Assembly (NCBI RefSeq): GCF_040183065.1
Contig: NC_091122.1
Span: forward strand, 153,750,455 to 153,814,454
Length of the DNA stretch: 64,000 nt
Reading direction: 5' to 3'
Origin: Periplaneta americana
Lineage: Eukaryota > Arthropoda > Insecta > Blattodea > Blattidae
Made by a program: the position numbers and the translations under genes. Of this stretch, positions 4,144 to 62,110 are shown one piece after another; positions within the stretch are counted from its first letter, which is position 1; each line of letters starts with the position of its first letter. The notes under the pieces were generated by a model, which saw only the letters and a list, made by a program, of their open reading frames with translations, made no database searches and had not been told where the DNA came from.

Positions 4144-4147
4144 TTAA

Positions 4148-4808
4148 GGGGACACTGCTGAAATTTCCAAGTTCCATATTTTTTAAAGATTCACAATAGT
4201 GAAATTACTACCATAGTTATGAATCTAGAGTCATCAAATTTTGATGGTATATCTGGTTAATAATGACAAATATACGAAATTTCATCAGTCTATGATAAAA
4301 TTGTTTTCATTTTGTAATATTTTATTGAAATAATGAATTGCTTTGCATAAGAAGTCCCTTGCATCACAATTTAAATTATTCTTAACCGATATTCACTTAT
4401 ATGGATCCTTATATACACGTGGTCAAAACTTACTATAGGATTTTGCTGTAAAATTATTCAGTAATTTACTAGAATTTTTTGATTATAAAAGAATAAAAAA
4501 CATTAAACATAAATTTCTAGTAATTTACCAATTCACTGTACAGAAAAACCCAATAGTAATGTTTGTTCTAATTTATATAAAGATCATATTAAGTGAATAT
4601 CAGTTAAAAATTAATGTAAATTGTGGCGTAAGGATTTTTTTTTATATATAAAATCATACAATATTGTATTCAGTTATTAATCAAATACAAACCACTTATC
4701 ATAGAGGGATGAAATTTTGTAAAAGTTATTAACCAGGTACACCAGTGATAAGTTTTGTGAATTTAGCTTTAAAAACCTGGAAGTTAGTAATTTCAGTATA
4801 GTGTCCCC
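4148..4808. mobile_element. TTAA-flanked foldback element, copy 1
   Basis: The body is 661 bases, bounded by TTAA at 4144-4147 and 4809-4812. It starts GGGGACACTGCTGAAATTTC and ends in a close inverted copy, GAAATTACT...AGTGTCCCC. The two halves remain complementary through much of their length. For example, ATTCACTTATATGGATCCTT at about 4390 pairs with sequence near 4590, and the CAGTAATTTACTAGAATTTT stretch at about 4460 pairs with its inverse near 4515. No transposase frame is present, so it is non-autonomous and is identified by structure only. Confidence 0.82.
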
Positions 4809-4812
4809 TTAA

Positions 4813-7315
4813 AATTTTGCATATACACAATGAAACTGGATTGAATACCATAGGTACTTCATACAAAACAAATTATAACACATATAGAATATTGAATAGA
4901 ATAAATAATACATAACCTTCAGTTTTTATAGTTCAAAATCACACTGCACCAAGGCTCCAGGAGCTCAGACTGAAGAGGTAAGAACAATACAGACCAAAGG
5001 TCAGATGCATTATACAAGAAGAGAAGAAATTTGGAAGAAAAAAAAAAAAAGGAAGAGAAAAATATAAATTGTAATTTGTAAAAAAAATTCGAACATCTCT
5101 AGAATAATTAACTAAAAACCGTGCCATAACATTACGAGAATTTTTGTCCTAGCTGTAAAGAGAAGTTTGGGTATTTCTGTACTATTGCGTTACCACTCCG
5201 TAAGGTATGAATATATTTAGGTACTTGGTTTCTATTTGAGTCACATGTATCGTTAACAAAGAAGAAAAATTGAGTGACAACACCAAATTCGCACCGAAAT
5301 CAGGTTGGAAAGTTGCTGTGAAAGCGGTGGCCAACAGAGAAGCAGGATCACATGCATTGCATGTAAGCTTATTTGGTACTGGTAAGTACATAAATAGGTG
5401 GAAAGCAAGTTGTCGTAAAGTCTAGTATCAGTAACAGGTTAGGTAGGTTAGTTCAGGCATTCGTCTTAGTTCAGTCTATAAATGCCTTGCATATGTATAC
5501 ACGTATTTTTGTCCGTAGGTGGGTATGGATATGTCATTTCTTTTTGGTAACTATAAAAAATTAACGAACTTTAAACTATGTGGAAATTTATGAATCTAAA
5601 TTCGGGCAAAATATTACAAAGGAAACATGTCTAAGGCCAATGAGTTTTTTTAATGGAGCCAACCATACTATCAAACATTTATTTATTTTTTTTTTTTTTG
5701 GGTCTAGGGAAAATACTCGTTCATTTACTTTTTTTTTATCCAGAGAAACTACCTCATTTCATGGGGTGATTATTTTTGGTACAAGGTAAGTACAATTTTT
5801 TTTTGTCCCAGATAAAATACTCTTATATTCGCTGATCTAACACGCAACTCATTTCGACTTAATTTTGCGCCATCTACTAAGCTAGCCTACACTAAACTAG
5901 CCTCTTGCGAGAAAAATAAATTAACAATGAAATAACGCGTATACAGTTTTACCCAGAACAGTAAGGAACTTTTCCGTTCTATTTCGCGTGTAGTGCACGT
6001 CTTTAACTGTACGCCAAATGTTCTGTTTTCTAATATGAAGATGAAAACTTAGAACGTAGGATATGTGACATTCTATTTATTTTACAATAGTGTTGTTACA
6101 AAAACTAGATGATCTCTTTCTACGTTTTGTCCTTCATTGAATTTTATGTCCCTTGAAGAAAACCTCAGTTTCAAAGTATTTTATGATTAGATGAGCTTTT
6201 TTCTATTGTTATTCGAATATTAAGTTAATATAGAATGTAATTATTAGAGGTCATTATCGCTTCTGATTTATTTTATGGAGAAGAAAATGAACAGTTGAAA
6301 GCAACGTCGACTGTTATGACTACACGATCGTTCTAATTGGTGCACCAACACTACAATATTTCAGTTAAATTTGTTTTGAGTATATTTCTATGAAATGCAT
6401 TTAGAGATAGTTTTTATTAACAACATTTAATGAAGAGATGAGAGAAACAGACATTCAACTGATGAAATAAAAGAATTTTACACATTTTTACGATGAAAGT
6501 TGCAGTGCTTTTTATATGTAGGCCTACTCTTTAATGAGGGATTGAGAATTGCACGTTCATGTGAAAAGTATTAACTTGTAGTTCTATTCATGTTGAGTAT
6601 ATTTCCATGACGGGAAAAACATTAATTTACCTTAAAGTTTAAAAATAAAATAGCTATACCAATCATTATGCTAATGAGTGATGCAGGAATATATCTCAAT
6701 ATGAAAAGTTAAGAGGGTAACTAGCAGTAAGTCAATATTATCGATCGCCGACTCATGGTGTCAAAAGTTCTATGTCGATAATTGTGTTCTTATTTCTTCT
6801 TCCTAAAATCATGTAACATTAAATTCACACGCCACCTCCGTTCCTCCTCCCTTCCCAACTACTGATCGAAGTCATTTTTCCTCGTATCGATCACTAATGC
6901 CAGAACAGTTTGGTTTCTTGTATTGTCGAGTTTAGCCGAAAATTCGAAAATCAAAATATATGTTAAACGTTTTATAGCGTCAGCTTTTAATCGATTCAAT
7001 GTACAGGTATATATTGAAACTTTTTCGGTTAAATCAGCTAATTTATTATTGTTTTACACCAACTGACGTAACTGAAGCATTTTTGAAGGAAGGTAGTGTA
7101 AACATTACTGTACGTCTGAGGGTCTGCCTACCACAACTAGGTATATTATTCCCTTTCATTATTTGGCAGATTATTTCGTATAAGCCAGTGTTTAGAGACA
7201 TTACACGTTTACCTACACTTTTCACTAATTGCATTAATTGGATTCACCGGAGAGGGTTTTATGCGTACTGAGTAAAAAATGTAGTTCTATAAATATGGGA
7301 TAGTCAACATTAATT
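4813..7315. other. Long AT-rich stretch without recognised genes
   Basis: It contains poly-T and poly-A runs (5035-5050, 5684-5700, 5725-5737, 5796-5805) and no open frame I can assign. No inverted or tandem repeat was evident by eye. Confidence 0.4.
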
Positions 7316-7329
7316 CACAGTCTAGTATA

Positions 7330-8219
7330 CAGGGTGTTTCAAAAATACGGGGCATAATTTCAGGTATGTATTTCCCACATGTAGACAATCAAAATATTTC
7401 ATTACAACATGTGTCCGGAAATGCTTTATTTCCGAGTTATGGCCTTCACAACATTGAAATTCACCGGAACGTTTTTCTTTCCGCAGGTCGTTGCCGTCAA
7501 AGGAGACATTAAGAGGGCACTCTGACAGTTCATTCCGAGGCGAAGGTTACATTCAGTGTTGTGTAGGCGTTAGGCTGTGCGACATGTATTCAAATCAAGA
7601 GCTGGCAGAGATACACTTCATGTACGGTAAGGCGGACGGCAATGCTGCGCTGGCTCGTCGTTTGTACCAGGAGAGGTACCCACAGCGACAATGTCCAGAT
7701 CGGAAGACATTTGTACGTCTCTATTACCGTCTGTGCGAGTATGGAAAATTTAACTCTCCTGATTTGGGAAGGGGGCGACCAAGATCTACAACTCCAGAAG
7801 TACAGGAGGAGATTCTGGAGGCTGTGAACATGACTCCTTCTATCAGCACACGAAGGGTAGCGTTGCAAGTCAATGTTCCTCATACGATTGTCTGGAGACT
7901 ATTGAAAGAGTATCAATCGGAATCGAATTGTGGCATGTTCTGAGGACATACGCAATACTCCTGGAGTTTGGGATCGTGTTCGCAGGTCAATGAGACATCG
8001 ATGTGAGGTCTGTAATCAAGCAGGAGGTGGACATTTTGAACATCTTCTGTAATGACAACTACCTGCGGAAAGCAAAACGTTCCGGTGAATTTCAATGTTG
8101 TGAAGGCCATAACTCGGAAATGAAGCATTTCCGGACACATGTTGTAATGAACTATTTTGATTGTCTGCATGTGGGAAATACATACCTGAAATTATGCCCC
8201 GTATTTTTGAAACACTCTG
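7330..8219 (+). mobile_element. Internally deleted Tc1/mariner-like element with about 165-bp inverted repeats
   Basis: The termini CAGGGTGTTTCAAAAATACG and CGTATTTTTGAAACACTCTG are flanked by TA at 7328-7329 and 8220-8221. The inverted repeats run about 165 bases at each end. The interior keeps the N-terminal helix-turn-helix of the transposase and a short C-terminal piece, but the DDE catalytic region is missing. It is therefore non-autonomous. Confidence 0.88.
7584..7943 (+). CDS. DNA-binding-domain-only remnant of a Tc1/mariner-like transposase
   Basis: The open frame encodes 119 residues from ATG at 7584. The start MYSNQELAEIHFMYGKADGN and the following ARRLYQERYPQR belong to the helix-turn-helix N-terminal type (the insect DUF4817 type as I recall it) found in many transposon proteins. 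RGRPRSTTPEVQEEILEAV is a linker with a GRPR motif, followed by a second HTH (STRRVALQVNVPHTIVWRLLK). After about residue 110 the frame departs from the family. In the next frame (7942-8052) lies the usual family C-terminus: RNTPGVWDRVRRSMRHRC...GGHFEHLL-stop. The catalytic domain was lost by internal deletion. Whether any protein is made is unknown. Confidence 0.75.
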   Translation: MYSNQELAEIHFMYGKADGNAALARRLYQERYPQRQCPDRKTFVRLYYRLCEYGKFNSPDLGRGRPRSTTPEVQEEILEAVNMTPSISTRRVALQVNVPHTIVWRLLKEYQSESNCGMF

Positions 8220-8388
8220 TATACAGTCACGAAGCTTGAGTTGTGAGGATGCTAGGAACAATAGACTGTGCCTGTACTATTTCGCATTGTCTGTAATGAG
8301 GCAATAGTCGCGATCCTAGTGGTTAGCAACTCTCTATGGATGCGTATTTACTACATTTTGAGCTTCGTAACGTATATACTAAACTGTG

Positions 8389-9484
8389 CTATTTAGCGTA
8401 TTTAAGGTCAACCTGAATGTTTAAAATAGCCTACCCTTCTGTCATGCCTCTTGTTACCAGTTAGTGGGTGTGGAACAATGACGTCATACGCTACTCGAGA
8501 ATGGAAGCGGTATGTTTTGAATGTTGTCTGGCTAAGGTTATTTAGCATCGATAGGATTGGTGACAGATAGCGAGATGAGGCCGACAGTTCTCCATGGGAT
8601 CATCTGGCATTCGCTTTACAGTTAGGAAAAACCTCGTGGAAAAAGAAGAAAAAACAAACTAGGTAATCAGTTCAAGTTGGAATGCAATTTACATCCAGTA
8701 GGCAAACAAGCTACCGCCAGAGCTACGCGGCGCAGGTGGGCCGAAAAAGAGACAGGGAGATAGAGAGAATGTTCTAGCAACTCAGGTAAGTATCTTGTAT
8801 TCTCATACGTAATATAATTAACACAAAAGATCTGTTTTACTGTGCATCCTTGAATACTATTTTTATGCACCGGTACCTGAACTAGTTTTCCTGCCTTATG
8901 GTTGTACTCGCACAACAGGGAAACGGAACATGATCAAGCCCTTTTTCCCCCTTCAAATGATCCCCCTTACTCGAACGTACAATAGCCGTTCCCAACCACG
9001 TTTTAACCCTGAAAGAAGACAAAACTCTGACTGTTAAACGTAGCTGTGAAGCTTGCATGGATATACCGTATTTCTCATACCAACTTGCGAACTACAAAAA
9101 AGAACTTACATGTTCTGCTATGTACAGCAAAGTTAATCATCTGATTTAAGGCTGTTACAATAAACATAAAGTCTTGAAAATTAATATTTATGGAATCTAT
9201 GGTGTATAATGTATTTCAGTTCCCACAGTTATATTTATTTATTTTATTTATTTATTTTTAGATTTAGATATATTCAAATCCAAATAATACAAATATATTA
9301 TAATGAAAGATAAAAGTAGTAGTATATCGAAATGATAGGCGTCCAAATCTTGGATTTAAAATATCGGCATCCTAATCAATTCAAATGAACAAAAAAGAAA
9401 AAGTAAATTAATGTTAGAAAAATACATAATGAAATTTAAAAAAATAATAATATTCTGCGATAAGATGTGGTGTGCGATAAAAAT
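8389..9484. other. Intergenic, locally GC-richer, no gene assigned
   Basis: 8460-8760 and 8935-9010 are GC-richer than the surroundings, and a TTTA-rich patch lies at 9232-9257. The minus-strand frame at 8667-8915 has no recognisable motif. Confidence 0.35.
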
Positions 9485-9760
9485 TTATTGAAAATAAATA
9501 ATATGCACTGAATATTATAAAGATGAATAGAGATGATGATTGATGATGTTCAATGAAGATTTTAAAATGGATGATGCAATCGTCTGAAGAGTCTTTTCAT
9601 GAACCTTTAATTTTATGAGGATCTCCAATGTAAATTTGGGAATTGTTCCTCGCGCACCAAACATAAGTCCAAAGACATTACAATCTTGAATATTATATTT
9701 ATGACTGAGATCGTCACAAAAGCACAACACAAATAATAACAAAAATTAAAGAGAGAAAAT
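9485..9760 (-). pseudogene. 5'-truncated R2-type non-LTR retrotransposon, extreme C-terminus
   Basis: The minus frame reads SHKYNIQDCNVFGLMFGARG then TIPKF...LKSSLNIINHHLY. It closely parallels the ends of the two longer fragments at 25.3 and 38.3 kb (VFGLMFGARGTIP, LKSSLAIISNNLY). Only the region after the endonuclease domain survives. The insertion is 5'-truncated, as is typical of target-primed reverse transcription. Confidence 0.7.
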
Positions 9761-10368: not shown

Positions 10369-10372
10369 ATTA

Positions 10373-12300: not shown

Positions 12301-12874
12301 ATACTTACTTACTGGCTTTTAGGGAACCCGAAGGTTCATTGCCGCCCTCACATAAGCCCGCCATTGGTCCCTATCCTGTGCAAGATTAATCCAGTCTCTA
12401 TCATCATATCCCACCTCCCTCAAATCCATTTTAATATTATCTTCCCATCTACGTCTCGGCCTCCCTAAAGGTCTTTTTCCCTCCGGCCTCCCAACTAACA
12501 CTCTATATGCATTTCTGGATTCGCCCATACGTGCTACATGCCCTGCCCATCTCAAACGTCTGGATTTAATGTTCCTAATTATGTCAGGTGAAAAATACAA
12601 TGCGTGCAGTTCTGTGTTGTGTAACTTTCTCCATTCTCCTGTAACTTCATCTCTCTTAGCCCCAAATATTTTCCTAAGCACCTTATTCTCAAACACCCTT
12701 AACCTATGTCCTCTCTCAAAGTGAGAGTCCAAGTTTCACAACCATAAAGAACAACCGGTAATATAACTGTTTTATAAATTCTAACTTTCAGATTTTTTGA
12801 CAGCAGACTGGATGATAAAAGCTTCTCAACCGAATAATAACACGCATTTCCCATATTTATTCTGTGTTTAATTT
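12301..12874 (-). mobile_element. 5'-truncated RTE-like non-LTR retrotransposon, copy A
   Basis: The insert sits inside an AGT array and is flanked by AAGTAGTAGAAG at 12289-12300 and 12875-12886. The 3' tail in element orientation is (GTAA)n. The sequence is nearly identical to copy B at 31929-32709. Confidence 0.85.
12319..12732 (-). pseudogene. Non-LTR retrotransposon ORF2 C-terminus
   Basis: The frame covers the region after the reverse transcriptase: FENKVLRKIFGAKRDEVTGE, then WRKLHNTELHALY, RRLRWAGHVARMGESRNAYR, GRPEGKRPLGRPRRRWEDN and DLREVGYDDRDW. The R.LRW.GH and GRP..RW motifs are typical of the C-terminal part of RTE-like elements. Compared with copy B it has a small disruption upstream (GHRLRVFEN instead of REEHRFRVFEN), and the reverse transcriptase core is absent by truncation. 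Confidence 0.82.
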
Positions 12875-19061: not shown

Positions 19062-20100
19062 TACATACATACATACATGTTCTGCTCATGGGGAGATCTT
19101 TCATTGCAAACCCAGCATTCTCCAATCTTTCTTATTTTCTGCCTTTCTCTTGGTCTCCGCATATGATCTACATATCTTAATGTCGTCTATTATCTGATAT
19201 CTTCTTTTGCTCCGAACTCTTTTCTCGTTCACCATTCCTTCCAGTGCATCCTTCAGTAGGCAGTTTCTTCTCAGCCAGTCACCCAACCAATTCCTTTTTC
19301 TCTTTCTGATCAGTTTCAGCATCATTCTTCCTTCACCAACTCTTTCCAACACAACTTAATTTCTTATTCTGTCTGTACACTTCACCCGCTCCATTCTTTT
19401 CCATATCCACATTTTAAATGATCCTATTCGTTTCTCTTCACTTCGTCGTAATGTCCACGTTTCTACCCCATACAATGCCACACTCCACAGAAATCACTTC
19501 ACTAGTATCTTCCTTAGTTCTTTTTCCAGAAATCCGCAGAAGATGCTCCTCTTTCTATTAAAAGTTTCCTTTACCATTGCTATCCTTCTTTTGACTTCCT
19601 GGCAGCAGCTCATGTTACTGCTTATAGTACATCCCAAGTATTTGAAGCTGTTCACTTGTTGTACTGTCTCATTTAGAATTCGCAAGTTTACTTTCTTTAT
19701 TTTTCTTCCTATGACCATGGTCTTCGTCTTGTTTGAATTTATCTTCATTCCATACTGTTCACAGCTGTCATTTAGCTCCAGTAGCATATCCCTTAGTATC
19801 ATCTCCTCTTCGGCTAACAACGCCATATCATCAGCATATCTTACGCACTTTATTCTTCTTCCTCCTACTTTTACCCCTCCCATGTTCTGAAAACAGTTCT
19901 TCACTAAATCCTCCAAGTAGATGTTGGACAGGGTAGATAATAAAGGGCATTCTTGTCGTACTCCTCTCCCTATTTTACTTCTTCCAGACATTTCTTCTCC
20001 TATCTTGACTTTGACTCGTTTCATATATAGGTTACTGAACAGCCTCTCGTCTTTCCAATCCACACTTATTTTCTTCGGGATGTCCATCAGTTCCCCTTTT
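19062..20100 (-). pseudogene. RTE-like non-LTR retrotransposon, reverse transcriptase to C-terminus
   Basis: The minus frame 19494-20087 contains GVRQECPLLSTLSNIYLEDL, the catalytic KCVRYADDMALLAEEE, GMKINSNKTKTMVIG and NSFKYLGCTISSN: reverse transcriptase fingers, palm and thumb. Beyond a break the C-terminal part continues at 19101-19352 (LKLIRKRKRNWLGDWLRRN, RRYQIIDDI). The 3' end carries an (ATGT)n tail at 19062-19080. The element is 5'-truncated near 20100 and broken around 19353-19494, so it cannot make an active enzyme. Confidence 0.88.
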
Positions 20101-20427: not shown

Positions 20428-20662
20428 GAGTAGCTTAATATCAAAGACGGACATCTGTCGTCTCCATAGTTTTGATCTAGAGGCAATTTTTTAATTCACA
20501 GTGTTCTTTGTAATATTTAACACAATTTATTTTATAAATATAGTGTTAGAGTTTGCATATGGTTTCACTTTAACTGGAAAGAGCATGAAAAATTGTATAA
20601 AAAACCACAGCTATTTAAATTTCGATTGAGATCAGATGTCCGTCTTTGATATTAAGCTACTC
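20428..20662. mobile_element. 235-bp MITE with 30-bp perfect inverted repeats
   Basis: GAGTAGCTTAATATCAAAGA (continuing CGGACATCTG) at 20428 is exactly inverted at 20633-20662. The 4-base flank ATTT is duplicated at 20424-20427 and 20663-20666. There is no coding capacity. Confidence 0.9.
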
Positions 20663-29717: not shown

Positions 29718-30215
29718 ATTATTCCAATTATTGTATTTTAGCCATAAACATTTTCATTACAACCAATAACGAACATTTCACAAGCATCAATGTGAAATAC
29801 GCAACGAGCTAGCACTCGATGGAAATACGACACTGTCCAAAGTCGACCGTGGACAGTCTATTGTTTCTAGTTGCTAACCGCTTGGAGCGCTTTATCACGA
29901 GATTTGCAAAAAATCACCTCAAGCTTCGCGACTGTATATAGTAGACTGTGGTAAAACTATGAAGGGTAGTGGCGTTGCATCGCTAGAAATTATAGATAAG
30001 GAATACGAAAGGGTTCCTGAACCAAGGAAGGTTAAGAGATTAAATTCAATAGGTCAATGTTGGCTTGGCTTACTCGTATGTTTTCCCCGAAATATACACC
30101 CAGTAGAATCCATCAGTAACTTCGGGGTATTGTGTGTCTACTCATAAAATTCCTACAGTCCAGAAGTTAGGCACAATATCTTTTCAACTGACTATATATA
30201 AACGAAAGAGTTTAA

Positions 30216-30916
30216 GGGGGAAAGTACACCATTGGTCTATAAAAATTTAGTGAAATTAATATTTGTATATCTCAACTACTATAAATGCTAAATGAACAAA
30301 ACTTTTCATGCTTAATATACATACATTACACTTTATAAAACATTATTCAGAATATTAAAATAGCTAATAATTACCTGTAAAAATAATATCAAATTTGTAT
30401 AATTTTTTACAACACTAAAGCATTTACATAATAAAACCTACAATAATTAATTATCCGCATGATTTTTTACATAATTATTCTAAACACCTATATCAACAAC
30501 ATAGTTTAGGATCTTTTACCTGTTCCTTCAGGAAATATTTTTTTCTTAATAAAAGATTTTATACAATTTAATATTGAAGGTAACGATTAAAAAACATTTC
30601 TTGAAGGAATAGATGAAAGATCCTAGACTATATTGTTAATGTAGGTCTTTAAAACATTACAGTAAAAGAATCATGCAGATATTTAATTAATTGTAGGGTA
30701 TATTTTATTATGTAAATGCTTTACGGTTGTAAAAAATGCAAATTTGATATTATTTTTACAGATAATTATTAGCTATTTTAATGCTCTGAATAATGCTTTA
30801 TAAAGTGTAATGTATGTATATTAAACATGAAAAGTTTTATTTAGCTTTCATAGTAGCTGAGCTATAAAAAAAATGAGTTTCACTCAATTTTTGCAGGCCA
30901 ATGGTGAACTTTCCCC
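30216..30916. mobile_element. TTAA-flanked foldback element, copy 2
   Basis: TTAA lies at 30212-30215 and 30917-30920. The ends GGGGGAAAGTACACCATTGG and CCAATGGTGAACTTTCCCC are inverted. The arms pair almost throughout: TACATACATTACACTTTATA / TATAAAGTGTAATGTATGTA, AATATTAAAATAGCTAATAA / TTATTAGCTATTTTAATGCT. The centre lies near 30540-30600. No coding frame. Confidence 0.88.
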
Positions 30917-30952
30917 TTAATAAACACAAGATAACACTGAATAGAAAATGGA

Positions 30953-31914: not shown

Positions 31915-31928
31915 CCAGTACCAATTAC

Positions 31929-32709
31929 TTACTTACAAATGGCTTTTAAGGAACCCGAAGGTTCATTGCCGCCCTCACATAAGCCCGCCAGCGGTCCCTA
32001 TCCTGTGCAAGATTAATCCAGTCTCTATCATCATACCCCACCTCCCTCAAATCCATTTTAATATTATCCTCCCATCTACGTCTCGGCCTCCCTAAAGGTC
32101 TTTTTCCCTCTGGTCTCCCAACTAACACTCTATATGCATTTCTGGATTCGCCCATACGTGCTACATGCCCTGCCCATCTCAAACGTCTGGATTTAATGTT
32201 CCTAATTATGTCAGGTGAAGAATACAATGCGTGCAGTTCTGTGTTGTGTAACTTTCTCCATTCTCCTGTAACTTCATCCCGCTTAGCCCCAAATATTTTC
32301 CTTAGCACCTTATTCTCAAACACCCTGAACCTATGTTCCTCTCTCAGAGTGAGAGTCCAAGTTTCACAACCATACAGAAGAACCGGTAATATAACTGTTT
32401 TATAAATTCTAACTTTCAGATTTTTGGACAGCAGACTGGATGATAAGAGCTTCTCAACCGAATAATAACACGCATTTCCCATATTTATTCTGCGTTTAAT
32501 TTCCTCCCGAGTGTCATTTATATTTGTTACTGTTGCTCCAAGATATTTGAATTTTTCCACCTCTTCGAAGGATAAATCTCCAATTTTTATATTTCCATTT
32601 CGTACAATATTCTGGTCACGAGACATAATCATATACTTTGTCTTTTCGGGATTTACTTCCAAACCGATCGCTCTACTTGCTTCAAGTAAAATTTCCGTGT
32701 TTTCCCTAA
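31929..32709 (-). mobile_element. 5'-truncated RTE-like non-LTR retrotransposon, copy B
   Basis: CCAGTACCAATTAC is duplicated exactly at 31915-31928 and 32710-32723. The 3' tail in element orientation is (GTAA)n. The insert is a longer version of copy A at 12301-12874. Confidence 0.93.
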
Positions 32710-40653: not shown

Positions 40654-41379
40654 TTTAAACAAGAATTTAATACCATCTCCAGAATCTGTAAAATAATGGT
40701 TATTGTTAGATGACCCTGTAAGAAAATTACGAAATGATTTGTAACAGTGAGGGATTAAAGTATTAAATAAATTTATTTTTAATCCATAATAAATTCACAG
40801 CAAGAGCAAGTCATGTGGATCATATCTATACATGAATTTCAATACATCTCGTGTTACTCAAACCAGTTCTATACAACATGATACAGAGTGAAACAAATAA
40901 GGTGGTAAAATATTTGAAAATATCTGTCTCAAGAAGCATTTGAGTACAAGAAGTCAATAATTTTATTCAGTATTTCTTCGAAAATACATACGACATTATT
41001 TGAAAGATCAAGAAGAATAATTTTATAGAAGAAAAACGATGAAGTTATTTTTTATTGAATTATTATTACATGTAATATGATTTGATTTAATACTTGGATA
41101 AAGGGTGTGGTGTACTTCTTAAGTTTTATGTCTCACGATAAGTTCTGATATTTTTTTGAAAGAATATTTAAGATTCACGTAAATAATACAATGAGTTCAT
41201 GACGTGGTTTATACAGGAATTTCTAATTTGAAACCCGAAGATTATTTGTCAAGCAATATTCAATCTCTTAACATTTAATTTGTTTTAATTTATGTTAATG
41301 GCATTGTCCAGATTCTAATTGCAACATAATGTGTATATTAAGCTACGAAAATGAGTGAATATACCTGTATTATATTAAT
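40434..41379. other. Intergenic with an (AAT)n microsatellite
   Basis: About 18 AAT units lie at 40597-40652. Otherwise AT-rich and unrecognised. Confidence 0.6.
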
Positions 41380-41482
41380 AGATAAAGGTCATGAACCTAT
41401 CTTTTACTAATGAATAAGATATTACAATCTCATTTCGTATAATTCAACAAACGTTTTTAACCTTTAAAGATCATCTTCAGAA
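41380..41482. repeat. Large imperfect inverted repeat, outer left arm
   Basis: ACTAATGAATAAGATATTACAATCTC and flanks at 41400-41430 are inverted at about 43757-43785. The similarity runs from about 41380 to the CATCTTCAG at 41482 and pairs with 43719-43812. An inner arm, CACATTTAAATAT...GATCATGTCACTTTA at about 42090-42135, pairs with about 43640-43695. Confidence 0.75.
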
Positions 41483-41843
41483 GGGTGAAATGGTTAGATA
41501 TCTGATCTACGATTTTATGATCGTGTAAGCAAACTTTCCAACCACTGGATAAGTTAGAACCAAAGATATAAAAAAAAAGTACAAACTTTGAAAGAGTTCC
41601 GCTAGTTCTCAATAGATGACACCATTATAGGGGTGGTTAAAAAGTGTTAGGGAAAATGATTATGTAGATTAAACATAAATTATTCTCATAATTAACAATA
41701 TCAGCGGTTTCCAACTAAACTAGTAGATTGGGATGAAAAATTGAATTCTATAATGCGGGTATATTTGTCTACGACTGGCGACATTAATTACTACCTTCGC
41801 CATTTATTCATAGAAGTAATAACTAAAGAAGCCACACTTACAC

Positions 41844-42025
41844 CACAGTCTAGTATATACAGTCACGAAGGTCAATACGTAGTAAATATGCATCCATAGA
41901 TAGTTGCTAACCACTAGGATCGCTAATATCGCCTCATTACAGACAATGCGAAATAGTACCTGCACAGTCTATTGCTCCTAGCACCTTCACAACTCAAGCT
42001 TCGTGACTGTATATACTAGACTGAG
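41844..42025. mobile_element. CACAGTCTA MITE, intact 182-bp copy
   Basis: CTTACAC is duplicated at 41837-41843 and 42026-42032. The ends CACAGTCTAGTATATACAGT (CACGAAG) and CTTCGTGACTGTATATACTA (GACTGAG) are inverted. It serves as the reference for the interrupted copy at 7316-8388 and the large member at 27696-29950. Confidence 0.93.
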
Positions 42026-42481
42026 CTTACACCAACAAATTATCGATCACTATCGATTAGTAGGTTCAGATATATTTTGAAGTGTACATTGGCACATTTA
42101 AATATATAGAAAACGAGATCATGTCACTTTAGATTGAGATTACGAACGTCTCAGTTATTAAGCAAATGCAGTACACGACGTAATACATCAGATTCTATGT
42201 ATGTCCAAGTGCATGAAGCGATCGGACAATTCTTGAGATCTTTGTAAATAATAATTCAATATCCACAAATTTATGTCACATCTGACACTATATTTCAATA
42301 CTTAACTTCATTCTACACAATACGATCTGATGCATCAAGACATACTGCTTTTACAGTTTTTATTTAGATAGATTTTAAGTTAAAATTCATTGATGTAACG
42401 TTCAATCATATTGCTCAATATTTGAAAACATTAAGTAATTATACAACACATAGCGATATGTCATAACATTCTTATAATATA

Positions 42482-43464
42482 CAGTGTTACTATAATTGAT
42501 CTTTCCGATTACAAACTTGAATAACTATCGTTAGGAGACACTTAGAAACATGATATTGGTATCAATGGAAAGAGAAACTCAAATATTTTTGTTATCTATT
42601 CGGTTAAATCACATGTGCTACTCTTAAATCAGCAAAAATGAGAAAACATGTAGCCTAATTGGTATCAACAGAAAAAGAAACTCCAACAATTTTTAAAAAT
42701 TTTCACTGGAAAACATGAAACAGAAAGAGAAACATTTGGTTCACAACCGTAAGTAAGTCACATGTGCTCAATGTGTGCTCCTTGTGTCACACGACACACA
42801 TCACGTCTGTAGTTAATTTCCTGCCATACACGATGTAGCATTGGACCATCCACCAGTGCAATGGCCTCTGTGATGCAGACACGAAGATCCTCAATGGTAA
42901 GTGATAATGGTGGCTGATACACTTGTTTTATAAAACCCCACAGAAAAAAATCACAAGAAGTGAAGTCGGGGGAACGTGGAGGCCAATGCAAACATTCTAA
43001 ATCTTCACGGCCAGCACGTCCAATCCATCGCCTTGGAAGTCGTGTATTCAGTTCCTTTCTGACATCAAAGTGGTAATGGGGTGGTGCTCAATCCTGCTGA
43101 AAAATGAGGCCTTCGATGTCCTGTTCCAGTTGTGTAAGAAGCCATAACTGTAACATGTCTAGGTACGAATTACCTGAGACTCTCGACTTGTTCACTCATA
43201 TTCTTTTAAAATTGCGTTGTATAGTGACAACAGACTGGGATATGTGAAAATCTAGCACACAAAATACCCTCCTCTTTTCGTTTGCAGCCATTTTTCTATT
43301 ATATCGTCTCCTAGTAACGAAATTAATAAATATGCGACAGGTTCACCAACATAACAAAAATATTTGAGTTTCTCTTTCCATTGATACCAATATCATGTTT
43401 CTAAGTGTCTCCTAACGATAGTTATTAAAGTTTGTAATCGGAAAGATCATTTATAGTAACACTG
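42482..43464 (-). mobile_element. Tc1/mariner-like element with about 115-bp inverted repeats
   Basis: The left end CAGTGTTACTATAATTGATC and right end GATCATTTATAGTAACACTG stay complementary for about 115 bases, through ATGATATTGGTATCAATGGA and AAACTCAAATATTTTTGTTA. TA precedes the left end; the right flank is CA, probably mutated. It encodes a transposase C-terminal part on the minus strand. Confidence 0.88.
42758..43120 (-). pseudogene. Tc1/mariner-like transposase C-terminal half
   Basis: The minus strand reads GLIFQQD-stop-APPHYHFDVR (second catalytic Asp, with TGA replacing the following codon), KELNTRLPRRWIGRAG, HWPPRSPDFTSCDFFLWGFI (third Asp), LTIEDLRVCITEAIALVDGP, HRVWQEINYRRDVCRVTQGA and HIEHM-stop. 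By my count 46 residues separate the two Asp here, against 41 in the copies at 16.2 and 39.9 kb. The HTH and first Asp are missing. Confidence 0.85.
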
Positions 43465-43718
43465 CACTTGGAATGCAATAATATTACCGCATTCTACTAC
43501 TTTTTCAGTGTATGCTTTAATACTACCCAATGAAGTAATACTTTTATTTGTATGTTTTAATGTGTTTTTTTGCAGATTTTAACAATTTTAACTTCATAAT
43601 GATTTATTGACAAAAAGTTTGTGCTAAATAGGATAATTCAATGTAAAGTGACATGATCTTGTTTCCTACATATTTAAATGTGTTCAACGTACATTTCACT
43701 CAAACTGAAGATGGTTTT

Positions 43719-43812
43719 TCATGGTTGAAAACATTTGTTGAATTACAATATAAGAGATTGTAATATCTTATTCATTAGTAAAATATAAGTTCATGACTGA
43801 AAGCCTTTATTC
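43719..43812. repeat. Large imperfect inverted repeat, outer right arm
   Basis: The partner of 41380-41482. It lies about 255 bases beyond the right end of the mariner-like element. Confidence 0.75.
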
Positions 43813-44679
43813 ATTAATATAAAATACTTGTCTTATCGGGAAAACATGTCTTTGAACATACCGACAGTCATGAGACATGTTACATTACTTTTATATTTCA
43901 AGAGAAATTTTCAAAATGTTTTTTATACTTCAAGAGAAAACATTTTCAAAATTTTAAACATTTTTGTGCCATTTCTAAATATCTAAACTTACTAACATCC
44001 TGAATTTATTATTAACATTTTCTTTCAAAAACAAGCACCAAACAAAATTATATTACATCTTATTTTTACATTTCATTTATGAATTACATTTTATTTATGT
44101 AACCTTCTCTTTGGTGGAATCACAGATGATAAGTATTTTATTGTAATGTAACAACGATGAACAGGCAAGACAATATTTTTCAGTGATCGATTTTCTACAC
44201 GGCTGATAGGGTGGGAATTTTGATTATGTCACAGTTGGTATCTAATACCAGATATTGTTTCTCGCTTTTTAACTAAGTTACGGCACTTACTTTCATAATC
44301 ATTAATAACAATGACTACACATACTTTCTCGCACAGCCAACAGACAAACTGATCTTAAATCTACTTTTCAGAATGTGTAATTTTTAAAATATTTACAGAT
44401 GAACTATCAACATTTTTCTATACAAACAATCACATGTGAGGAATTCATTCATCATGCTCTATTGTGGGACAGTTTTCGAAGTAAAATAGATATGATTCTA
44501 AGTCTAAAATAACACGAATAAAATATCATACTCAATTTTACAGAATATCATAAAATGCAATCACATTTTGACTAGTGTGTAGGATGTTATATCTATATGT
44601 TTTTTTTTACAAATATATATGTATAGGCATTGTGGGAATATATGTACATAATTCATGGATGTTTCAGACTTATATTTGA
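43813..44679. other. Intergenic, nothing recognised
   Basis: AT-rich sequence. It could include the 3' untranslated region of the possible minus-strand gene at 44680-45250. Confidence 0.35.
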
Positions 44680-45717: not shown

Positions 45718-45721
45718 TTAA

Positions 45722-46555
45722 GGAGAGACTCCACTGAAAATCATGAAAACTTTCCAAAAAAAATTGGGTATTTCACTTCTTTACAATGTATATTTCCATA
45801 CCCCAAATGGATTTAGTTCAATTCTGATTACAAATATGTTTAATTTTTATTTTAAATTAAGGCTGTAAGGGGGCGTGGTATTTAATGAGCTGTTAAAATT
45901 ATTTTTTTTATCAAATAATTCTTTTTTTACAAATTTATGATTGCAAATCTAGTAACTTTTTGTTCTAAAGTTGGCTCCCTGGAAGTTACTAGATGAATGT
46001 GGCGGAGGATAATTTTAATTTGCATGAATATTCATCTTGCTTTCAAATCCATTTTTCCATCAGTTTATTTTTCTTGATTTAACTCCAATTTTTTATGCCA
46101 AATATTAATCAATCTGAACGAAATTTTACTGCAAGAAGGTAGCTGCATGTTTCTAGTCATTGATTTGATGATAAATGCTGATAGTTTATTTTATTAATAT
46201 TTTTTCATGAATTATAGAAAAAAATAACGTTTTTTTTCTTTTAAATTTAAAGAACATTTTCCAAAGTGAAAAAAATGAGATATTTCATAAAACGAATGAA
46301 TAGAAATGTTTCTTTATGTCTTGTGAATGTAACAAGAAAACGAAGCTCAAAAATTGAGATTTTCTACTAAAGATTTTGCTTTGAAAATACTTCTAAAAAG
46401 AATAGAAAAAAATAAAAAATCAAAAGCCAAAAACATTTGGAAATTAGAAATTGTATTTTGTTAGTCCTTTACATAGCAAGCATGCTTTCAACAATTGGTT
46501 GAAAAAAATCAATAATGAATGAAGATAAAAGTTGTCATTTTAGTGGAGTGTCCCC
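45722..46555. mobile_element. TTAA-type foldback element, copy 3 (diverged)
   Basis: The left flank is TTAA at 45718-45721; the right flank is TAAA at 46556-46559. The ends GGAGAGACTCCACTGAAAAT and (inverse) GGGGACACTCCACTAAAATG match at most positions. The start also resembles copy 1 (GGGGACACTGCTGAAA). Interior pairing is weak. No transposase frame. Confidence 0.65.
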
Positions 46556-46559
46556 TAAA

Positions 46560-53322: not shown

Positions 53323-53324
53323 TA

Positions 53325-54378
53325 GGGTAAAGGTTGCTAATACTGTGATACGAGTAATATTGTGATAGTTCTTTTTGAGATTCATTACAATGTAACTGAG
53401 AGAGAGACGGACCGATTTTGTACAGCAACTTGTCCACGAACATTCCCTTAATACGTTGACACAACACAAAAAGCCGATCTTCCTCTCTCTCTCTCTCTCT
53501 CGGTTTTTTGCGTCAACGTATTAAGGGGCTAGGTACTTACAGCTTACAGCAGTAAAATTTTGGAATCATCCAACATTTTTTTACTCCATTACTGTATCTT
53601 GTACAATAACGAAAAGTAATATGTGTAAAACACTGTCCTTCTGCTATATGAAAATAAATATTTTTACGATTTAAAAGAAATTATTATTATTTTTTTTCAA
53701 AATTCAAAATGGTGGCAGTTCACTGTGCAGTGATGAAGCATTTCCCTCATAACTCAAAAACTATCCAGCATTCTGTGACGAAATATTTTGTGTGTATTTA
53801 TACATGTCATATCTACAATATGATATAAAATCACTTCTCTACCTTTGATAGATTGTCTGATAATAAAATTAAATAATTTTAAAGAAATAGTCAAATATCA
53901 GTATTTTCTTCTAACACAAAATAAAAAAAAATTATTTATTAAGGAATGTAATTGAAAGAGCATAATATTGTAAACATGAGTTTCAGCAATAAAATAAAAG
54001 AGAGAGAACATGAAAAAGTTAACAAGTTTATGAGTTATGAGGGAAACGCTTCATCACTGCACAGTGAACTGCTACCATTTTGAATTTTGAAAAAAAATTA
54101 ATCGTAAAAATATTTTTTTTTCATATAGCAGAAGGACAGTGTTTTACAAATACGAATTTGTATTATTGTACAAGACGCAGTAATGGAGGAAAAAAATGTT
54201 AAATATTTCCAAAAAAAAAAAAAATACTGCTGTAAGCTGTACCTAACCCCTTAAGGGAATATTCTTGGACAAGTTGCTCCACTAAACCGGTCCTTTTCTC
54301 ACTCAGTAAAATTGTAATAAATTCTCAAAAAGAATTATCACAACATTACTCATATAACAATATTACCAACCTTTACCC
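53325..54378. mobile_element. TA-flanked foldback element split by a nested TTAA foldback
   Basis: TA lies at 53323-53324 and 54379-54380. The left arm GGGTAAAGGTTGCTAATACT and right arm TATTACCAACCTTTACCC are inverted. Pairing continues through CAACTTGTCCACGAACATTC / GAATATTCTTGGACAAGTTG. Removing 53525-54254 joins GTCAACGTATTAA to GGGAATATTC and gives a 324-base near-complete palindrome with a (CT)n-containing loop (53482-53501). Confidence 0.9.
53525..54250. mobile_element. TTAA-flanked foldback element, copy 4 (nested)
   Basis: TTAA lies at 53521-53524 and 54251-54254. The ends GGGGCTAGGTACTTACAGCT and AGCTGTACCTAACCCC are inverted. The arms pair over most of their length: AAAACACTGTCCTTCTGCTA / TAGCAGAAGGACAGTGTTTT, TGGCAGTTCACTGTGCAGTG / CACTGCACAGTGAACTGCTA. 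The target was a TTAA in the arm of the older element. Confidence 0.92.
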
Positions 54379-54380
54379 TA

Positions 54381-56920: not shown

Positions 56921-57851
56921 TAATCTGGAATGAAATAGCGTATCATAATTCTTTACGTTTAGCAGAAGTACTGAAATATATTAGTCAATACTTGAAGCTC
57001 AGATATGTAATCTCTTGATTACAAAGTAAGCTACGAAACAATTAATTTCCAAATATTTTGTGAAAACATTTTACATAACCTCATAACACTAAAATATTCT
57101 GTGTTACATTCTCTTCTGTCACTTTTCGAATTTCTCTCCGATTTATGAATAATTGCATATAAAATTTAATGTTTACTAATTGTGCGTTTGTTTGCAGACT
57201 GAGTACGCCTATTGCTCTAGTCTTTTTGTACAATTTTGTACCACGGGTGTAAGATTCACAAACAATTTACAAATTATACTACCGCAAAATCTTCTTTATT
57301 TGGGTGATATGTGATTAGTGATATGAAATTACTTTCAACGAAATTTTATAGCTACATTCATGCAGCAGCCTTGATTAGACCATAAACTACTAATAGTACC
57401 CTGTTTATTGAATTTTCACTCAATATATTGGTTTTTAATCTTTTTAAGTACCTGCCATAAGATTTCACCACACGAAGAAACTTTTTTAAAAATAGTTGTT
57501 AAATTTTATATTGCAAAATAGTACGTGTATATGTATACTGTAGCACATCTTTTTGAAAGTACATGTCGCACTCTCAGTAAAAGAGTGTCATAACTCGAAA
57601 ATTGTGACTTGTTACGTCATTCGTTATCTTGTAAAACCAAATGCATTCGTGTGCCGTAACTCATAGTAAGAACCTTATGGTAGGGGTAAGCGAGCTAGCT
57701 AGCTTGCAAGTCGAAGCGTAGCGAGGGAGGGAAGCTCCTCAGTCCACTTTTCTTTCCCCTCACGAGCAGGTTAGGTTTCACGATATACCGAACGGCCTAT
57801 AAAGATATGCTATTTCCTAGTAAAATACTGCTGTAATAGTACATTATGCAA
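56921..57851. other. Intergenic, nothing recognised
   Basis: AT-rich sequence. GCGAGCTAGCTAGCTTGCAAG near 57689 is a small palindromic string. Confidence 0.4.
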
Positions 57852-57957
57852 CGAGCCTATAATGAAGGTAATTAAGAAGTGAGTATGGATATTTATGAAA
57901 CGAGCGCAAGCGACTTTCATAATTTTCATACGAGCTTCTTAATTACCATTATAGGCG
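57852..57957. repeat. 106-bp hairpin
   Basis: CGAGCCTATAATGAAGGTAATTAAGAAG at 57852 is inverted as CTTCTTAATTACCATTATAGGCGAG, ending at about 57957. The loop holds AAACGAGCGCAAGCGACTTT. It abuts the element at 57972. Confidence 0.75.
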
Positions 57958-57971
57958 AGTTTCATACGACT

Positions 57972-58480
57972 TTTTATGCTCGACCATATTTCTAACTTGA
58001 TATTATTAATTTTTTAGCAATGTCCCGTATGTTGTGAGATGTGCGCAGACGCGAAAGTATTGATTTTTTCCGAGGAACAGATGTCCACATTGACCTTGCT
58101 AGGCCATAATAACCTGCAGAGATAACATTGAAATTAAATTAGACATTGAAAAACGAGATGACAAATTGAAATTATTTGAATATTATTTACAATTAACGCT
58201 AATTATTATAGTAACAGAACATAACCTTCTGCGACAGTATTGGATTTCCAGCCTCCGTGACTTTTCGCTAATTCTCTTTCGATTGCATATCCGAGAAAAA
58301 TCAATACTTGCGGTTTAATAACGGCAGAAAGCTGACCTGTCATTGGCTGAACAGTTGTAACCTGAGTCGTCATTGGCTGAAAGACCTGACCTTTAATGAG
58401 TAGGTGTACTTTAATGACATGCATTAAAGGTCTGCTACCAGGTGTATAATTACTACATTTCGGCATGGTCGAGCATAAAA
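57972..58480. mobile_element. 509-bp element with 16-bp perfect inverted ends
   Basis: TTTTATGCTCGACCAT at 57972-57987 is exactly inverted at 58465-58480. No target-site duplication is clear. A minus frame (58206-58466, 86 codons) starts MPKCSNYTPGSRPLMHVIKV inside the right end and repeats a QPMTxQ motif. Its status is unknown. Confidence 0.6.
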
Positions 58481-58754
58481 TTGTTTAATAAATAGGTACC
58501 AAAACCTTTAATAATTTAGGCCTATTTTATTAACAGAATTTCATACCTGCAACCAGTAAAACAGTATTGGAAATTATTTACGAGAGTAATAAGTAATTTT
58601 CGACGTATGACAGTATTTAACTGGATGTGCGATGTGTATGTGGCTTGTATGTACCCAAGCAATTTTTAATTTTGAGTGTGTATACATGTGTACGTATCCG
58701 TTCCATTTGAATATTACATGCGAAGGGCCTGCCTTTACCTTTTTAGTAAAATTA

Positions 58755-58816
<62 letters not shown>

Positions 58817-59050
58817 TGGTAATTATGATGGTCTTGAAATATCAAAGAAGAAAAAATATCCATAAGATGTCGGAGAATGATTTCCAACAAAAGAAAAATA
58901 CATATTAAGTAAAATATTTATTAAATAGAGAAATTATTAAACTGAAAAATAAGTAAAAGAGGCTTTAAATTTCTATTATAACGGTACCATTGTTGCGGAT
59001 GAACCCATTCAGTTGTTAACCAAGATTGAAATTAATGACAACGATTCAAC
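58481..59050. other. Intergenic with an (AAT)n microsatellite
   Basis: About 20 AAT units at 58755-58815. Otherwise unrecognised. Confidence 0.6.
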
Positions 59051-59054
59051 AAAT

Positions 59055-59442
59055 GAGGCGTTCAGAGCTAAATTGGATCAAGTCACAAATTTTCATATAT
59101 CGAGTTTTATTCATTTTCTGATTATTTATTTGAAGTTGGATCTTTTCCGAGCAGTAATGGATCAAGTCTTAATTCCAAGCATTCGCCGGTAGGTGACATC
59201 AGTCACTTTTGGCTTAGATTATATTTGTTCACGATGTTCTGAGCCATAATGGATCAAGTCACCAAAGCGTTGCATCAATTTACATCACAATTATTTAAAT
59301 TTTATAAATTTAGAATTTGAGAATGGAGCAATAAAATTATTGCTATTGAAATTAGATAATCCACTAGAGCAAGTTAACTTTAAATCCTATTATCTCAAAA
59401 CTACATCTCATGGACTTGATCTACTTTAGCTCTGAACGCCTC
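59055..59442. mobile_element. 388-bp MITE with iterated GGATCAAGTC motif
   Basis: AAAT is duplicated at 59051-59054 and 59443-59446. The ends GAGGCGTTCAGAGCTAAA and TTTAGCTCTGAACGCCTC are perfect 18-base inverted repeats. The motif TGGATCAAGTC occurs near the left end (59074) and twice internally (about 59158 and 59250), and diverged and inverted near the right end (GGACTTGATC). Confidence 0.88.
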
Positions 59443-59446
59443 AAAT

Positions 59447-60190
59447 GTTTTAATGTGTTTTATGGCTAACATAATTAAAATCAGTTTACACGCTTCCAAC
59501 GTAAGTTTTGGCTACTGAATGTTGTTTCTTCACCTAGTTTTAATTTAATTCAGAAATAGGAAAGACGTCTGAAAGAATTTTGCAGTGTGGCAAATTAAAA
59601 ATTATCAGAAAGACCAAAAACAGTTGGCAAAAATGTTATGAGTATTAAGATAATCATTCCAAAGAAGTCTAGGTATCCTTTCCAATGTTGCTTATATACA
59701 ACTACAGCTTGCTGACCACATATTTCTCAATGCGTTTCATAAAAATGTATGCGTGCATATGAGTTTCAACTGTTACGCCAAATTAAACCAAACGAATGTG
59801 CGTTTAGAAGACAGTTTTGTAATAAAATGTTACTGAAAATAGATGGAAATGGAAATTTCCTCAATTCTGTATGCATCACAGATGAGCAACGTTCCATCTG
59901 AATGGTAGTGTGAACAGATATAACTCTAGACTGGGGAAACCAACCGCCTTAACAAATCACTGAACACCAAAGACATACGGAATTGATGCTTGCTAACACA
60001 TGGAATGAGACAGATTGCCGTTTCGATGCGTGTAGTGTAATTAATTGAACACATATAAAATGTACTACTACGTATAAATAGTTATTTGTGTTACTTGTAT
60101 GTAAGTTCAGTTTCTATTTATAATTAATATTTTACTTCATATTTATTTTTCGTTTATTGGACACAATTCTGGGACTTTTAGTATTTAAAA
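59447..60190. other. Intergenic, nothing recognised
   Basis: AT-rich sequence without convincing frames. Confidence 0.4.
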
Positions 60191-60192
60191 TA

Positions 60193-61227
60193 CAGTGAAA
60201 CCTGCCTTTGCGGTCACTTCATTTAAACGGCCACCTGCCCAAAAGGCCAATTTTCTCTGGAACCAATTGGATTTTCCATAAGATCAATACAAATCCTCTC
60301 TTCATTTAGCGGCCACCTCATGCTTCGGCCAGCGGCCGGGGTCTCTTTGGATTGGAACCTGACTATAACAGTCACTGTCCAACAAAATTTTTTTTTCACG
60401 GATACTGTCTGACCTATTTTTTCGATGGTTAGAGGACAGAGAGCAATATTACGAGTACAACAACTAAGTGTACAACAGTACACCCTCCATATCTTGGGGC
60501 TAGTTGGTTAGTTTTATGACTCTTTTGTCACTTTCCACTTCGATCCTGCACAGCCATAAATTCTTACTCGTTTTTAAAGGATTGAAACACGGACGTTTTC
60601 TATCGAAAATGTCACAGTATGTTTTAGGTCAGTAGTTAACCATTCGAAATTTTTATATTTTTTTTCCTCCTCTTTCCATCTTTTTCTATTTGGACCAGCT
60701 TTTACGAATTTTTCTTCTTTTCATTCAGTTGATTCAGAGGAACTGTGACGTTAGTTTGAGTCTAACAATATATCTAGAGTGGTATTAAGTTTAGAGGTGA
60801 GACGAAAAATGATTGAAGAAAGCGAGAAGGGAACATCTGCGAGAAAAATTACAGAAATATTCAAATGTGGAAGGACACAAATACACGGTATAATTAAGAT
60901 GAAATATTAAAACAATGGGAGGAAAATATGCATGGTGGCCAAAAAAAGAAGAGAGAATCTGTGTTTAGTAATGTGAATGATTTCGTTTACGAATGGTTCA
61001 AGTGTGCGAGGGCGAAGAAATTGAGTTTTGAAAAGGCTAGTTGCAAGAATGGAAGAGGCTGACATTAATATGCACGATTCTTGTACGCGCACAGTCCTAA
61101 AAAGTCAATGAAATTCAGTACTTTCATGCTGATTCATAAAAAACCGCAACCTTAATTAAGCGGCCACCTGATAAAACGGCCATTTTACAAGGTAACTTCA
61201 GATGGCCGCTTTAGACAGGTTTCACTG
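60193..61227 (+). mobile_element. pogo/Tigger-like element, internally deleted
   Basis: The termini CAGTGAAACCTGCCTTTGCG and (inverse) CAGTGAAACCTGTCTAAAGC match at the outer 13 bases, and related CGGCCACCTG motifs recur inside both ends (60230, 60305, 61162). The left flank is TA; the right flank is AA. At 1035 bases it is shorter than an intact copy, and the catalytic domain is absent. Confidence 0.85.
60789..61052 (+). pseudogene. CENP-B-type DNA-binding region of a Tigger transposase
   Basis: LEVRRKMIEESEKGTSARKI, TEIFKCGRTQIHGIIK: a CENP-B-like N-terminal HTH. After a stop and frame change: EILKQWEENMHGGQKKKRES, VFSNVNDFVYEWFKCARAKK, the second DNA-binding helix-turn-helix. The frame ends at 61052, before any DDE motif. 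The break and missing domain make it inactive. Confidence 0.8.
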
Positions 61228-61340
61228 AATACACTGGGTGCCTTTGTACTAAAGCATGACAGAGGATGCTAATTTGGAACAAAGAACATTCTTTGTTTAA
61301 CCAATATTTTTTGTATGGAAATTTGTATTTATCTTTTTAA

Positions 61341-62106
61341 GGGTATAGGTACGTGAAGGACCACAAATATTATCAGAAACTGCAGGCTCTAAATTTATAC
61401 AATTTTATAAGGAAATGAACTCACAATTGGACAAAAATTACAAGGTACCACAACAAGACTTATTAGAACTTAAATATCTGATAAAAATAAAAAAGGTTAC
61501 TAATATCATTTTTTAGAATTCACTTTTTACTTTGAATTAAATTTACCAAAATTTGAAAATTTTCACACATTATTTCGTAACTCCACAACCATTAGAGATA
61601 TAATTCAGAAATTTTGTACACTGATTTAACATGCATTTATGCAAAAGGTAGACTACAATAATCGCCATTTCTTTGAAAATAGAAAAATTAGGTCACAAAA
61701 CATTATGCAAATTTTAAAATATTTTATATAGGAAAAATAAAAAAAAATAATCGTAATAAAATAAACAACTCTACATGTCTGAGAGTAGTCTACTTTTCAG
61801 AAATAAGTGTTTATTACATGCAGGAAAAATATTAAAGATGTCAGAAAGACCATAACAATGTTATGGTTACCAAATGATGTAATTGTAGACTTTTCTTGTT
61901 TTTTTTTTTCATACTTTAATAAAACTGGTTTCAATAATATTATTAGTAAGGTTTTTATACTTTTATCAGATATTTAAGTTCTAATAAGTCTTGTTGTGGT
62001 ACCTTGTAATTTTTGTCCAGTTGTGAGTTCATTTTCTTATAAAATTTTAGAAATTTAGAGCCTGCATTTTCTGATAATATTTGTGGTCGTCCACGTACAT
62101 ATACCC
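61341..62106. mobile_element. TTAA-flanked foldback element, copy 5
   Basis: TTAA lies at 61337-61340 and 62107-62110. The ends GGGTATAGGTACGTGAAGGA and (inverse) GGGTATATGTACGTGGACGA match with few differences. The arms pair over about 170 bases (CAAGGTACCACAACAAGACT / AGTCTTGTTGTGGTACCTTG, CTTATTAGAACTTAAATATC / GATATTTAAGTTCTAATAAG). The centre is less symmetric. No coding frame. Confidence 0.9.
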
Positions 62107-62110
62107 TTAA

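Follow-up and report, generated by a model that had tools for sequence, protein, structure and literature searches.

TTAA-bounded bodies in the window

The window analysed here, a stretch of 64,000 nucleotides from Periplaneta americana (contig NC_091122.1, positions 153,750,455 to 153,814,454 of the forward strand), contains five bodies, designated E1 to E5, that begin with GG, end with CC and lie between TTAA or TTAA-like tetranucleotides. We identify them as miniature inverted-repeat transposable elements (MITEs), i.e., non-autonomous DNA transposons, and argue below that they very probably belong to the Kolobok superfamily. A first-pass annotation of the stretch, made from the letters alone, had described them as one family of long foldback elements with the layout TTAA-GGG...CCC-TTAA. 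The coordinates that it gave proved exact, and the layout was borne out, including the GGAG start and the mutated right flank of E3. Read from the window sequence, the features are as follows (positions are those of the window):

4144–4147, no strand: left TTAA of E1
4148–4808, + strand: E1, a 661-base pair (bp) near-palindromic MITE with the ends GGGGACACT.../...AGTGTCCCC and, at the left end, an additional terminus-like block further inside
4809–4812, no strand: right TTAA of E1
30212–30215, no strand: left TTAA of E2
30216–30916, + strand: E2, a 701-bp MITE, palindromic over almost its full length
30917–30920, no strand: right TTAA of E2
45718–45721, no strand: left TTAA of E3
45722–46555, + strand: E3, an 834-bp MITE with short terminal repeats and no foldback
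46556–46559, no strand: degraded right TTAA of E3 (TAAA)
53521–53524, no strand: left TTAA of E4
53525–54250, + strand: E4, a 726-bp MITE with inverted arms of ~230 bp
54251–54254, no strand: right TTAA of E4
61337–61340, no strand: left TTAA of E5
61341–62106, + strand: E5, a 766-bp MITE with inverted arms
62107–62110, no strand: right TTAA of E5

All five bodies have GG...CC termini (GG(G)G...CCC(C)) and thereby the form 5’-RR...YY-3’, which is also seen in most of the copies read elsewhere in the genome. E1, E2, E4 and E5 are flanked by TTAA on both sides; at E3 the left flank is TTAA and the right one TAAA. The GGAG start is particular to the window copy of E3, most members of its family that were read starting with GGGG, while the left end of E2 carries one additional G. 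Across the window, 20 TTAAGG and 20 CCTTAA sites form seven pairs spaced 500–1000 bp apart, four of which are these elements. In three of these four, at least 9/14 terminal bases match, compared with a mean of 0.075 such pairs and a maximum of 2 in 200 random sequences generated from the dinucleotide steps of the window (E2 matches at just 8/14 because of the slip caused by its extra G). Chance is a poor explanation for the TTAAGG...CCTTAA pairs.

Internally, four of the five bodies are complementary to themselves, in agreement with the statement that most are: self-complementarity reaches 68.6% over 646 aligned bases in E1 and 81% over 724 aligned bases in E2, and the inverted arms are 80% identical in E4 and 91% in E5. 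E3 has a terminal repeat of ~32 bp at 75%. As the annotation had noted, similarity between copies is slight, and blastn at E 0.01 returned no match between any two bodies; by inspection, the ends of E1 and E3 resemble each other. What stands of the proposed single foldback family is therefore a set of TTAA bodies in subfamilies: there are five families, one of which does not fold back. The reported lack of a coding frame also held: two stop-to-stop frames of at least 70 amino acids (aa) lie in or across the bodies, measuring 70 and 72 aa. The bodies thus combine the features expected of MITEs, namely a size of 661–834 bp, non-coding sequence, terminal inverted repeats and many copies.

E4 lies at the edge of an inverted pair (53323–53451 and 54251–54380, 85% identical over 130 bp) whose arms both start TTAAGGGAAT(G/A)TTC(G/T)TGGACAAGTTGCT, and a hairpin-like stretch sits between TTAA sites at 53452–53520. 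The pair possibly represents two further TTAA elements placed back to back.

Families, boundaries and unoccupied sites

The host genome (3.23 Gb in 91 contigs) was searched with each of the five bodies, and the best 40 places per family, window copy included, were scored, so that the counts are lower bounds on copies. At first look the candidate places numbered 1374 for E1, 1879 for E2, 2813 for E3, 5580 for E4 and 1682 for E5. All 40 scored places matched in every family, and the 39 relatives outside the window are 78–92% identical. In the E1 family, 18 of the 40 places span the element nearly end to end; a consensus of eight loci reads GGGGACACTATACTGAAATTTCC...TTTTTAAGGGTTCACAATAGTGAAAT, and TTAA adjoins 15 of their 16 ends (by eye). 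One end of these copies (L001–L008) has a doubled terminus, in which a second GGG...TGAAAT block lies just inside the first and is joined to it by TTTTTAAGGG.

The remaining families have ends of the same kind. Read by eye, TTAA is directly followed by GGGGGGAGRTACACCATTGGCCTG in the E2 family (20 end windows), by GGGGAGACTCCACTGAAAATCATG and GGGGACACTCCACTAAAAATGAC at the two ends of the E3 family, and by GGGGTTAGGTACAGCTTACAGCAGTAAAATTTT in the E4 family. In end windows taken from 10 copies per family, TTAAGG was present in 12/20 for E2, 14/20 for E3 and 12/20 for E4, against roughly 0.5/20 expected by chance at the site density of the window; those without it mostly show point changes or a shifted end, and a few have no TTAA nearby. 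The E5 family, whose end reads TTAA followed by GGGTATATGTACGTGAACGACCAC, was aligned at 30 loci in one orientation, giving a 769-bp consensus from which the members differ by a mean Kimura two-parameter distance of 0.042, and in which the longest stop-to-stop frame is 67 aa. TTAA is present at 23/30 left and 28/30 right ends. Column identity, 0.39 and 0.41 over the 30 columns beyond the TTAA on either side, rises to 0.91 and 0.97 over the 20 terminal columns at each end of the element. Because the flanks past TTAA are unrelated, the boundaries at TTAA stand. In the consensus, the 175-bp inverted arms reach 99.4% complementarity, and since this is almost perfect, long inverted arms were probably the original state. 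When the five bodies were compared with 280,344 bases of collected loci (E1 and E5 loci excluded for their own queries), blastn at E≤1e-4 found no further copies.

To read the target before insertion, we joined the flanks of insertions with TTAA on both sides into 48 queries, drawn from 28 MITE loci, 16 loci of the autonomous elements described below and 4 window copies (two of them already included among the MITE or autonomous loci), and sought junction-spanning matches among the collected loci. Thirteen queries were positive; four were excluded (an own-family match, a short match, a match of low identity and an own tandem repeat) and nine were inspected. A single TTAA was found at the unoccupied relative in 4/4 E5-family and 4/5 autonomous insertions (8/9 in total), the fifth autonomous insertion having TTCG, and in 2/9 alignments only 16 or 17 bases are covered on one side. 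One TTAA in relatives that are free of the element is the trace expected from a 4-bp duplication. Among the collected loci, no unoccupied site turned up for the loci of the E1 family, nor for E2 and E4 as they stand in the window.

These data bear on the suggestion that the bodies are unrelated palindromes or recombination products sitting between TTAA sites by accident. Such an origin would suit bodies that have almost no internal sequence in common and a tetranucleotide as frequent as TTAA, with 637 sites in the window. Against it stand the 39 further relatives scored for every body across the genome, the TTAA and unrelated flanks found at most of the ends that were read, and the element-free sites known for insertions of the E5 family; in our view these copies and empty sites have already refuted an accidental origin, to which we assign practically no probability. 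Shared flanks beyond TTAA and an absence of genome-wide copies were the two outcomes that the first-pass annotation had named as fatal to its proposal, and the opposite was found in both respects. The five bodies are five distinct MITE families with TTAA duplication.

PF20700 transposases and their possible pairing with the MITEs

The annotation had further proposed that a transposase recognizing a common short terminus at TTAA must exist, and had called for a coding element with the same ends. We searched the same genome with the profile PF20700, whose correspondence to Kolobok was at first a guess and was afterwards tested through ends and motifs. The best 114 of 1816 candidates were scored, and many contain open frames of 500–700 aa. 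All six proteins tested match PF20700 (1.7e-69 to 3.6e-75), and their alignment contains the invariant residues D214, D300/D302, C326xxH329, H409, C412, C420 and E472 (numbering of the protein at L040). Kolobok elements, as characterized in PMC9587614, duplicate TTAA, have 5’-RR...YY-3’ ends and encode a DDD/E transposase with a C/DxxH motif between the second D and the E, usually followed by a zinc finger. The combination of DDD/E, C/DxxH and Cys/His residues is present in the six transposases of this genome and absent from the MITEs; we read the D, D, CxxH and E residues as putatively catalytic, following the published motif order.

The elements around these frames have the layout of the MITEs. 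In a cluster of 2.7-kb elements, all 15 near-identical members carry TTAA followed by GGTATATGTATA... on both sides, and their flanks differ save for one pair that resembles a segmental duplication. At two loci, the elements are 99.6% identical over 2.77 kb and agree in their ends and in the length of their open frames, and their flanks differ. Two loci of another PF20700 family have TTAA followed by GGGCACTGGGTAGT... on both sides. Among ten further loci, TTAA followed by GG... occurs on both sides in six and on one side in two, TGAA flanks both sides of one (a copy of the 577-aa family, L125/L126) and one yielded no recognizable ends; these loci represent fewer than ten families, as the ends of the 625-aa locus are those of the 631-aa family, and 560b shares its ends with the 585-aa locus. 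A 615-aa locus (L070) has TTAA at its left end only. Altogether, ends could be read for 12 families, counted by distinct ends; 8 of these include one or more copies with TTAA followed by GG... on both sides. Long open transposase frames within elements of the same layout are therefore present and support the proposal of the annotation.

Two other superfamily assignments have to be weighed against Kolobok. Tc1/mariner elements duplicate TA and Harbinger elements TWA. Since TA, TTA and TAA are all contained in TTAA, an unoccupied TTAA does not by itself fix the cut position, and the GG-rich ends could in principle belong to one of these superfamilies with TTAA as a preferred context only. Against this, the full TTAA adjoins most E5-family ends beside unrelated bases, the PF20700 transposases have the same layout around them, and the copy flanked by TGAA carries a 4-bp duplication without TTAA; we regard such an origin as very unlikely. 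MITEs mobilized by a piggyBac transposase would account for the TTAA duplication equally well, as it is common to piggyBac and Kolobok. The ends of piggyBac elements start with CCC or CCY. No such CC(Y) terminus stands next to TTAA in the window bodies (in the window as a whole, TTAACCC occurs three times and GGGTTAA not at all), and transposons of the same genome with GG next to TTAA encode PF20700 proteins with CxxH. The GG..., RR...YY ends are moreover the mark that divides Kolobok from piggyBac in PMC9587614, and a piggyBac origin seems highly improbable. The earlier remark that the ends are the opposite of those of piggyBac can thus be refined to a Kolobok-type transposase group. TTAA, RR...YY ends and the transposase signature together are the published marks of Kolobok and lead us to assign the bodies to this superfamily rather than to piggyBac, an assignment that we make with high confidence.

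In the mechanism that we favor, a Kolobok transposase encoded elsewhere would bind the GG(G)G... ends of the MITEs, excise them and reinsert them into TTAA, with duplication of this tetranucleotide, and the PF20700 transposases of this genome would be the mobilizing enzymes. To look for partners, the first 18 bases of the MITE ends were compared position by position with 24 autonomous ends, keeping the best of the 24 and treating the controls (1274 window sequences and 5000 shuffles) alike. Between the E2 consensus and the 560b end, 16/18 bases agree, a score equalled by 0/1274 window controls and 0/5000 shuffles, which strongly suggests a pairing of E2 with the 560b/585 family. The matches of E4 to the 560b/585 lineage (14/18; 17/1274 and 41/5000) and of the E3 family to the 631-aa family (left end 14/18, 11/1274 and 21/5000; right end 13/18, 75/1274 and 139/5000) are suggestive of further pairings. 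The 560b/585-aa lineage may accordingly mobilize E2 and perhaps E4, and the 631-aa lineage or a relative may move E3 and perhaps E1. For E5, a hint obtained by local alignment with 10 ends (0.006, one family) was rejected, as it failed in the position-by-position comparison with 24 ends.

Several observations weigh against the Kolobok assignment or the proposed partners. The Pfam name of PF20700 is 'Mutator-like', not Kolobok. The end searches were anchored (to TTAA only for the 2.7-kb cluster, and to GG, AG or GA starts for the ten further loci), and because ends were sought at the expected layout, the common arrangement of TTAA and GG is partly imposed. In the E1 family, 11/40 places match positions 35–651 only, six of them with equal scores, and may form a separate subfamily. 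Among the pairings, E2 falls to 15/18 with the alternative base at one mixed position (3/1274; 9/5000), E1 matches the 631-aa family at 13/18 with 75/1274 controls as good, a weak pairing, and the best partner of the E5 end among the 24 ends is no better than chance (12/18, 314/1274). We found no autonomous element sharing more than ~20 terminal bases with any MITE, and when the bodies were compared with the first 30 transposase loci by blastn, none of the matches listed fell below E = 0.006. Finally, two young PF20700 families, one of which is the 631-aa family, often lack a TTAA duplication; the ends of the other, the GGGGGTCCGG family, were found without layout-anchored searches and have no TTAA duplications (loci of the two families: L039, L042, L043, L045, L053, L056, L058, L067 and L068; L069, L071, L072 and L093–L112).

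In the GGGGGTCCGG family (nine copies, the compared pairs being 96–99% identical), TTAA flanks both sides in 0/9 and equal 4-mers occur in 1/9 (TCAA). In the 631-aa family, where three compared copies are 98.5–99.2% identical, TTAA is on both sides in 1/10 further copies; the others combine TTAA with TTCA, TTAT or ACGT, or TGAA with TTAA, or have lost an end (the right end was not reached in one of the ten). At the 625-aa locus, of the 631-aa lineage, TTAA flanks both sides. Immediately beside the elements, the two bases are AA on the left in 4/9 and TT on the right in 6/9 copies of the GGGGGTCCGG family, and AA in 8/9 and TT in 6/7 readable ends of the 631-aa family. In the unequal flanks that keep this AA or TT, it is often the two outer bases that vary. 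The unoccupied site of L039 points to a deletion on the left. The irregular flanks could possibly be donor flank carried along, or small deletions at one end. It is conceivable, though we think it unlikely, that the Kolobok-type families of this host differ in how they join, some inserting exactly at TTAA and at least two carrying donor flank into relaxed targets; carried flank, if true, would mean a different geometry of strand cleavage inside one superfamily. One 631-aa copy (L069) has a reverse-transcriptase-like neighbor (by eye) and, by both ends, a direct repeat of ~24 bp, not TTAA alone.

Other window features and known systems

The window holds several further repeats. Judged by eye, copies at 12302–12874 and 31926–32502, 96% identical, resemble the 3’ portion of a non-LTR retrotransposon; 19494–20099 is a fragment matching the reverse transcriptase family RVT_1 at 4e-15, the one match when ten window frames were searched against Pfam (RdRP_1 was below the cut-off for the same frame). 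An element with 182-bp inverted arms at 94% (7325–8224) and a 2.4-kb body of nested inverted pairs (41370–43822) both have the look of Tc1/mariner-type relics (by eye). A 213-bp body with perfect 16-bp inverted ends lies between TTAA sites at 20439–20651, and frames on the + strand at 467–1620 resemble, by eye only, exons of a cyclophilin-type host gene.

Through this analysis, what had been five foldbacks without an explanation are now recognized as five defined MITE families whose ends can be read and which are linked to many Kolobok-type transposases in the same genome. It is a well-supported set of families with likely partners, and the mechanism is not new. Kolobok is in our judgement far less studied than piggyBac, and the near-identical full copies make this host a practical one for finding an active Kolobok transposon; it also suits the question of how two transposase groups, Kolobok and piggyBac, both use TTAA. 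MITEs of piggyBac share the TTAA target with the families described here and differ in their CC... ends and in their transposase.

Kolobok MITEs are known from frogs (PMC6004289) and insects (PMC5199201). For this host we found no description of them in the open-licence papers searched. The main text of PMC5199201 does not mention Blattella, cockroach or termite, and the main text of PMC9689775, on cockroach and termite transposons, does not contain the word 'Kolobok'. Among the closest known systems is Kolobok as described by Kapitonov and Jurka (PMC9587614), with which the window families share the 4-bp TTAA duplication and RR...YY ends, and the putative partner transposases the D, D, C/DxxH, zinc-finger-like Cys/His and E residues in the same order. 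Unlike those elements, the window copies are non-coding, two PF20700 families of this genome have irregular junctions, and the partner transposases were assigned by layout and Pfam PF20700 rather than by reference Kolobok proteins. The T2-MITEs of Xenopus (PMC6004289) are likewise TTAA MITEs placed in Kolobok by their target and RR ends, although they end in AGGRR, whereas the families here have GGGG or GGGT directly after TTAA. The insect Kolobok MITEs of iMITEdb (PMC5199201) were also assigned by duplication and terminal repeats and have a mean length of ~386 bp, compared with 661–834 bp for the five bodies of the window.

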